A stretch of 64,000 bases of DNA from Syntrophotalea acetylenivorans (GTDB lineage Bacteria; Desulfobacterota; Desulfuromonadia; Desulfuromonadales; Syntrophotaleaceae): positions 2,604,001 through 2,668,000 of the forward strand of contig NZ_CP015519.1 of NCBI RefSeq assembly GCF_001887775.1. Direction: 5' to 3'. A program made the position numbers and the translations under genes. Under the pieces are notes generated by a model. It worked only from the letters and a program-made list of their open reading frames with translations. It made no database searches and was not told the origin of the DNA. The stretch's first letter is position 1. Each line of letters begins with the position of its first letter. Below are positions 37,403 to 37,954 of the stretch, one piece after another.

Positions 37403-37487
37403 GAGGAGTGGCCGAGTGGCTTAAGGCGGCGGTCTTGAAAACCGTTGTACGAAAGTACCGTGGGTTCGAATCCTACCTCCTCCGCCA
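37403..37487 (+). tRNA. tRNA-Ser(UGA)
   Basis: 85 bases with encoded CCA. Acceptor stem GGAGGAG/CTCCTCC, discriminator G, anticodon loop CTTGAAA (anticodon TGA), long variable arm and T-arm GGTTCGAATCC. It reads UCN codons. Its final 21 bases plus 13 flanking bases are repeated 160 bp downstream. Confidence 0.96.
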
Positions 37488-37510
37488 CTAATAAGCAGCA
37501 TCGATTGACA

Positions 37511-37660
37511 GGATTCGAAGCGGAGCGAGCGCTGACTAAATGTCAGAAGAGCGGGCAGGGATGCCCGCGGCAGCGAGTGCAGGGGAGCCTACGCCGGAGT
37601 CGACGTGATGTCGGCGACAGAGTGGGCGAATCCTACCTCCTCCGCCACTAATAAGCAGCA
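37511..37660 (+). repeat. tRNA-Ser-linked element A: 123-bp structured unit plus duplicated tRNA 3' end
   Basis: The unit (37511-37633) begins GGATTCG and ends CGAATCC, complementary ends. Internal hairpins are CTGAC/GTCAG, GCGGGCA/TGCCCGC and a GTCGAC/GTCGGC pair. It differs from element B at only about 4 of 123 bases. The unit runs into a second copy of the 3' part of tRNA-Ser(UGA). Bases 37627-37660 exactly repeat 37467-37500, including CCA and 13 bases of flank. The short protein frames here are not genes. Confidence 0.85.
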
Positions 37661-37691
37661 CAATGATCGTCAAAAAATAAAAGTTATGTAC

Positions 37692-37785
37692 GGAGAGGTG
37701 GCCGAGTCGGCTGAAGGCGCTCGCCTGCTAAGCGAGTGTACGGGGTCAACCTGTACCGAGGGTTCGAATCCCTCCCTCTCCGCCA
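37692..37785 (+). tRNA. tRNA-Ser(GCU)
   Basis: 94 bases with encoded CCA. Acceptor GGAGAGG/CCTCTCC, discriminator G, anticodon loop CTGCTAA (anticodon GCT), long variable arm. It reads AGC and AGU. Its 3' end is duplicated 166 bp downstream. Confidence 0.96.
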
Positions 37786-37814
37786 TTTTAAATCGTAACG
37801 CAACGGTCCTTGAG

Positions 37815-37954
37815 GGATTCGAAGCGGAGCGAGCGCTGACTAAATGTCAGAAGAGCGGGCAGGGATGCCCGCGGCAGTGAGCGCAGGGGAGCCTACGCCG
37901 GAGTCGACGTGATGTCGACGACAGAGTGGGTGAATCCCTCCCTCTCCGCCATTT
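37815..37954 (+). repeat. tRNA-Ser-linked element B: 123-bp structured unit plus duplicated tRNA 3' end
   Basis: Bases 37815-37937 match element A at about 119 of 123 positions. The unit runs into a second copy of the end of tRNA-Ser(GCU): 37932-37954 exactly repeats 37766-37788. Each element therefore ends in the 3' part of its own tRNA, not in that of the other. Confidence 0.85.

Follow-up and report, generated by a model that had tools for sequence, protein, structure and literature searches.

What are the two nearly identical structured elements that follow neighbouring tRNA-Ser genes in Syntrophotalea acetylenivorans, and why does each of them end in a copy of the 3′ end of its own tRNA? 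In the window, i.e. the whole 64-kb stretch of DNA analysed here, serS (TIGR00414, 559 bits) ends at 37249, upstream of an intact tRNA-Ser (UGA) gene on the plus strand (37402..37487; ARAGORN, RF00005), and an intact tRNA-Ser (GCU) gene (37692..37785, plus; ARAGORN) and tRNA-Arg ACG (38037-38113; ARAGORN) lie further on. An earlier reading of this DNA from its letters (the sequence-only reading) had placed an element behind each tRNA-Ser gene, A at 37511-37633 and B at 37815-37937, which ARAGORN and alignment confirmed; the identity of A and B, estimated by hand at about 97%, was computed as 119/123. As had also been proposed, each tRNA 3′ end is repeated exactly, CCA included. For the UGA gene, a 34-bp direct repeat runs from tRNA nucleotide 56 in the T loop to CCA and through 13 bp of flank (copy 1, 37467..37500, plus) and returns as the tail of element A (copy 2, 37627..37660, plus), while for the GCU gene the repeat spans 23 bp, from nucleotide 57 to CCA and 3 bp beyond (copy 1, 37766..37788, plus), and returns as tail B (copy 2, 37932..37954, plus). 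In element A, a 10-bp gap (37501..37510, plus) separates the duplicated flank from an inverted T-arm copy, here termed a1, which reads GGATTCGAA, the reverse complement of nucleotides 54-62 of the host T arm (37511..37519, plus), and which is followed by a core of covarying structured hairpins (37520..37626, plus). Element B has the a1 GGATTCGAA (37815..37823, plus) and a core likewise marked by covariation (37824..37931, plus). A 21-nt probe of the element start, with up to three mismatches allowed, found just A and B in the 64 kb and nothing in 100 shuffles. The third genomic copy (L003; G000:C1:1892268-1892390, minus strand) lies 3′ of tRNA-Ser GGA, and its tail comprises 24 bp of gene 3′ end and flank.

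To follow the element beyond this locus, we combined BLASTN with covariance models. By BLASTN (E≤0.01, decayed copies counted) the element was found in 7 of 14 Syntrophotaleaceae genomes. Within the order, a first model (R1; made from 13 copies out of this set) had hits at E≤0.01 in 76 of 136 genomes, which represent 35 of 53 genera and hold up to 14 copies each. For model R2, built from 73 diverse copies (alignment A2), a draw of 395 genomes across the phylum gave hits at E≤0.001 in 27, of which 7 belong to the order and 20 to other classes; the filters of this search were strict, and weak copies may have escaped it. A motif scan of named genomes yielded 76 stretches, among them stretches of Desulfuromusa kysingii, Pelovirga terrestris and Treponema, and four Treponema/Spirochaetaceae loci reached 33-85 bits with R2. 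Despite its strongly divergent cores, the family is real and old, as judged from sequence, because a third model (R3), made solely from 14 copies outside the order and 3 Treponema/Spirochaetaceae copies, recovers 17 copies of the order (10 loci) at 76-90 bits. The covariance-model search of the element, suggested in the sequence-only reading, thus led to a large unnamed RNA family spanning the order, other classes of the phylum and Treponema. No Rfam family reached its cut-off over the elements of the 64-kb window, six further loci and seven Treponema or otherwise divergent loci, so that the structured RNA family stands unmatched in Rfam 15; the nearest name other than tRNA at the six loci was sX4 (33 bits, cut-off 70), lying over tRNA-Ser. 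We found no description of the element family or of host-following RtT ends in open-access full text, and a supplement on multicopy sequences of P. carbinolicus may list copies. One Desulfuromonadales-like copy (L249, 156 bits) on a contig assigned to a Chloroflexi MAG (JADFVC010000225.1), probably misbinned, was left out of the counts; it lies behind an apparently broken tRNA-Ser.

The hosts were surveyed in 100 stretches, in which 153 copies were analysed. An RNA gene was called upstream of 147 of them, the nearest being Ser for 90 copies, Glu for 15, Gln for 14, Pro for 10, Leu for 7, Arg for 5, tmRNA for 4 and SeC for 2, a tally skewed to Ser because the model included a Ser tail. Among the six copies with no gene called, four still have an 18-20/20 match to their own tail upstream, and one of the two copies of L084 and the copy of L013 are without such a match. 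The claim that the element is linked to tRNA genes survived this survey: an RNA gene is at most 70 nt away for 138/153 copies and 142-443 nt away for nine more, eight of these being later units of tandem arrays and one lying behind tRNA-SeC. Outside the order, an RNA gene (Ser, Arg, Asn, Glu, Tyr, Ala, SeC) precedes the element by 21-61 nt at 17 of 20 loci, and the remaining three have SeC at 140 nt, no gene called and a distant Leu; the Treponema hosts are Gln and Pro. Nearly all copies sampled leave the host gene intact. A Ser-specific role tied to serS was rejected, since many non-Ser tRNAs serve as hosts, and the Ser/serS association looks incidental in view of ten further tRNA/tmRNA host types (Glu, Gln, Pro, Leu, Arg, Ala, Asn, Tyr, SeC and tmRNA).

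Both ends of the element follow its host. The tail is the 3′ part of the host and starts at or next to T-loop nucleotide 56. Compared with the last 22 nt of the adjacent RNA, 20-22 positions matched in 118 of 147 tails and at least 16 in 139, and for each of these 139 tails the best-fitting tRNA type among those of the set is its own, in agreement with the linkage claim. The other eight tails are truncated or poor; one of them (L023 1501-1637) has a tRNA-Gln host and a Ser-type tail, a combination that may stem from recombination of two copies or from a chimeric assembly. At the other end, host nucleotides 56-62 return in reverse complement as the first 7 nt of the element (a1), exactly in 132 of 145 copies and with one mismatch in the other 13, the two SeC hosts being excluded from this count; the inverted match usually extends beyond the 7 nt tested to 8-9 nt. 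Hosts with unusual T arms (Leu CGAGTCT, Gln CGATCCC, tmRNA CGATTCC, Pro/Ser CAAATCC, Ser CGAATCT) are followed by an a1 with the exact complement in 24 of 26 cases and with the default sequence in one. The pairing of a1 reaches position -1 (96% vs 76% in shuffles) and weakly -2 and -3. The inverted match between element start and T arm, noted already in the sequence-only reading, is thus present, and we add that its partner is the T arm of the host, which varies with the host and is not fixed in the element.

The structured core is about 105-115 nt long in the family. For the 73 sequences of A2, 35 pairs were predicted, 23 of them with at least one double compensatory change; these include pairs of the closing stem between a1 and tail, where the covariation restates the a1 rule because this stem takes its tail half from the host tRNA. 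Inner paired cells hold G.U 62 times vs A.C 6 times, a bias indicative of RNA from the tRNA-sense strand. Folded one by one, copies are more stable than shuffles (z about -3), and all four differences between A and B (positions 64, 68, 104 and 117) sit in consensus pairs and keep the pairing, in line with the earlier claim. The unconstrained fold of A and B favours an alternative closure of GCGGAG in the element with CTCCGC in the tail; this stem was rejected as a general feature, as positions 10-15 do not track the tails of other hosts (by eye). We also observed GGA in the P3 hairpin loop of 67/73 A2 copies and in P5 loops of 14/73, and some of the P3 loops resemble CsrA sites.

The cores themselves are only weakly sorted by tRNA. 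We compared the 131 cores whose tails are good. In 78 cases the most similar core follows a different isoacceptor. In 32 of the 131 (18 of the 47 non-Ser copies) it follows a tRNA that carries another amino acid, and in the other 99 the amino acid is the same; within a family, the mean core identity between genomes is 0.842 for the same tRNA vs 0.806 for different tRNAs. Because this sorting by tRNA is weak, cores appear to move while their ends get rewritten, although by the same figures (0.842 vs 0.806; 99/131) much of the pattern is vertical inheritance. Clear cases of transfer are present all the same: the core of L104 (Pro-CGG) is 96% identical to that of L060 (Ser-CGA) in a separate genome and 95% identical to Gln copies in two genomes. 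Where similar cores sit behind different tRNAs, both ends have changed to fit the host.

We therefore favour, with a probability of about 0.57, the reading that A and B are widespread gene-less elements of the RtT type that insert at the T loop, take their ends from the target by copying and rebuild the tRNA. Such an element would spread by insertion between nucleotides 55 and 56 of a tRNA gene, and its core would act as RNA of the tRNA-sense strand. In one possible reaction, a nicked bottom strand with the 3′ end GGATTCG would prime strand synthesis; this end equals a1 and can pair with a2 (CGAATCC) of the element RNA, and fold-back or template switching after synthesis would yield the ends observed. 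The tRNA would stay unbroken because its 3′ part and the trailer are duplicated in the insertion, and arrays might later grow or shrink through recombination between the direct repeats. By analogy to the reported rtT, the element RNA is probably transcribed and trimmed together with the tRNA. The sequence-only reading had offered a T-arm element that restores its target and a co-transcribed tyrT-like RNA as alternatives; each found partial support, and since both survive, they are perhaps two views of one thing.

The anatomy of the copies can be compared with this proposal. Element-free relatives indicate the former state of the site: the genome G011 provides an empty site, with neither an element nor an a1 between Ser-UGA and GCU, and the 46 nt that separate the two genes are similar, by eye, to what follows the tail in G000 and G013. 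The duplicated stretch begins at about nucleotide 56 and runs past the tRNA end for a variable length. A spacer of at least 45 nt with a T run was present in 28 copies; eight of them are array-like, and 10 of the remaining 20 have a duplication that extends past the T run. A copy in Treponema UBA3813 (L316) is framed by a perfect 76-bp direct repeat; no CCA is encoded in the tRNA gene there, so the template was not mature tRNA. The sequence after the tail enters another a1, of a tandem unit or a remnant, in 31 of 122 copies, and some apparent target duplications are therefore array remnants; full tandem arrays occur at six loci (L140, L139, L135, L105, L065 and L076). Decay was seen as well: behind tRNA-Ser GGA in two genomes (L009 in G001, L016 in G004), only the 5′ part or an internally deleted element is left, resembling the solo RtT remnant at an E. 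coli ST648 tRNA-Ser. Two Glu-linked copies (L125 in G108, L138 in G107) have lost most of the acceptor part of the tail and retain the terminator and the next a1.

The known RNA that comes closest in plan is RtT (RF00391), the repeat behind E. coli tyrT/tyrV. In RtT as in the present family, the tRNA is followed by a spacer with or without a terminator, an inverted copy of a tRNA 3′ part, a structured core of about 100 nt and a tail equal to the tRNA 3′ end, and both form tandem arrays in which the last unit is partial. To our knowledge, the tyrT repeats have had no convincing explanation for decades. Repeat-like places occurred in 4,695 of 5,426 E. coli genomes at a loose threshold (E≤10; median 3, range 1-10 per genome), and in 4,682 genomes one such place spans 80% or more of the query. 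RtT ends track the host too (Tyr GGGGAAGGAT, Ser GGGGGGAT, Pro GAGGAT; by eye): in E. coli BY68 a copy stands behind tRNA-Ser, in Salmonella SARB27 two stand behind tRNA-Pro, and start and tail fit the respective tRNA (by eye). At one E. coli tRNA-Ser locus, three strains have a remnant alone, one copy plus a remnant, and at least three copies, the third of which is cut off by the end of the stretch. The two differ slightly in register, the junction lying at about nucleotide 56 in the present family vs about 58 in RtT and the inverted copy at about 54-63 vs about 60-69 (by eye). Like RtT, the elements follow a tRNA gene whose 3′ end is copied in their tail, but none in the 64-kb window reached the RF00391 gathering score of 45 bits, none matched at E≤5 in six loci, and none matched in the seven Treponema or other divergent loci, while true RtT loci score 46-137 bits. 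In the reverse direction, R2 reached 19.1 bits on both Salmonella Pro copies, in full register, and 8.0-14.7 on other RtT copies, with bare tRNA reaching up to 15.3, and R3 gave 9.1-18.6 bits on RtT while bare tRNAs reach 21.4. Apart from the two Salmonella copies with R2, these scores are no better than those of tRNA alone, and the likeness of the core profiles is suggestive at best. Copies from outside the order contain a CCGA..GAGG hairpin similar (by eye) to the tandem G.A motif that a passage in PMC7657543 reports for RtT. We conclude that A and B belong to a new family of RNA elements of RtT type, known here from sequence. More tentatively, and at somewhat less than even odds, RtT-type repeats including E. 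coli rtT may form one class of minimal mobile elements across phyla, with neither genes nor fixed ends, whose ends are copied at each T-loop insertion while the tRNA is rebuilt.

The same data could be explained by selection on an RNA. An RtT-like small RNA, useful to the host, largely vertical and cut from tRNA transcripts, would keep the pairing of a1 and tail as its closing stem, and its moves would reflect rare recombination followed by compensation; the match of a1 and tail could then be kept by RNA-stem selection rather than made at insertion. The covariation including the closing stem, the G.U strand bias, the slight tendency of cores to group by tRNA, the nearest core serving the same amino acid in 99/131 cases, and the Gln/Ser mix of L023, which looks like recombination of two copies, favour this explanation, as does the release of rtT as an RNA from the tyrT transcript reported in a passage of PMC4986893. 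It is harder to reconcile with the patchy occurrence among members of a genus and family (at E≤0.01, 7/14 genomes have it, counting decayed copies), the copy number of 0 to 14 per genome, near-identical cores behind tRNAs of different amino acids with both ends altered, and the existence of decayed copies, and we consider it a serious, if on the whole unlikely, alternative to insertion with target-copied ends.

Duplicated tRNA 3′ ends are typical of integrase attachment sites, and prophage or island integration could leave them as scars. The conserved structured core and the inverted copy of the T arm do not fit such a scar, the duplicated end varies by tRNA, element A had no BLASTN match (E≤0.01) in 50,697 phage and 72,556 plasmid records, and the best R2 score in 29 viral contigs holding the start motif was 17 bits (E=0.07). 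Integrase scars are thus very improbable, and a phage or plasmid vector was not found in these BLASTN and R2 searches. A further thought is an orphan retron-like RNA mobilised in trans by a reverse transcriptase, perhaps lost since or brought by a visitor. The closing stem a1/a2, the AAGC right after a1 and the short hairpins that follow are reminiscent of retron RNAs; yet 40 of 76 carriers had no match to PF00078 (E≤1e-8), the genome with the most copies (G063, 14) among them, and reverse transcriptase occurs in 36/76 carriers vs 21/60 non-carriers (p=0.16), i.e. without association, which leaves this origin improbable. REP/REPIN sequences, mobilised with RAYT (Y1) transposases, are likewise small non-coding hairpin repeats in many copies; the present family differs in being bound to tRNA genes, in its host-matched ends and in that 7/76 carriers (G034, G046, G068, G086, G097, G120, G122) had no Y1 transposase (PF01797, E≤1e-5), some of these genomes being incomplete and two (G122, G034) listed as 100% complete. 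A resident reverse transcriptase or Y1 partner was rejected, the former being unassociated with carriage and the latter dispensable. MITEs and non-autonomous IS elements are also short and gene-less, with inverted ends and flanking direct repeats, but their terminal inverted repeats are fixed, whereas a1 tracks the host T arm, and the direct repeats of the present family reach from the T loop to past the tRNA end (76 bp in L316).

The anatomy of the E. coli tyrT repeats is thus found across phyla with a clear rule, both ends being read from the host tRNA, and this rule turns the repeats into a testable claim about a gene-less element that spreads among essential genes without breaking them. 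If the novel mobile class is true, nearly any tRNA gene could be used without harm. Moreover, the tails might be mistaken for tRNA fragments or attachment sites in annotation. Two other features were seen in the window. A multicopy intergenic element of about 125 bp, unrelated to the tRNA element, lies directly 3′ of serS (37250-37375), and BLASTN placed it at 45 sites genome-wide (itself included) with 77-100% identity. In addition, a ZMP/ZTP riboswitch (56.9 bits) is located at 44579-44665 on the minus strand.
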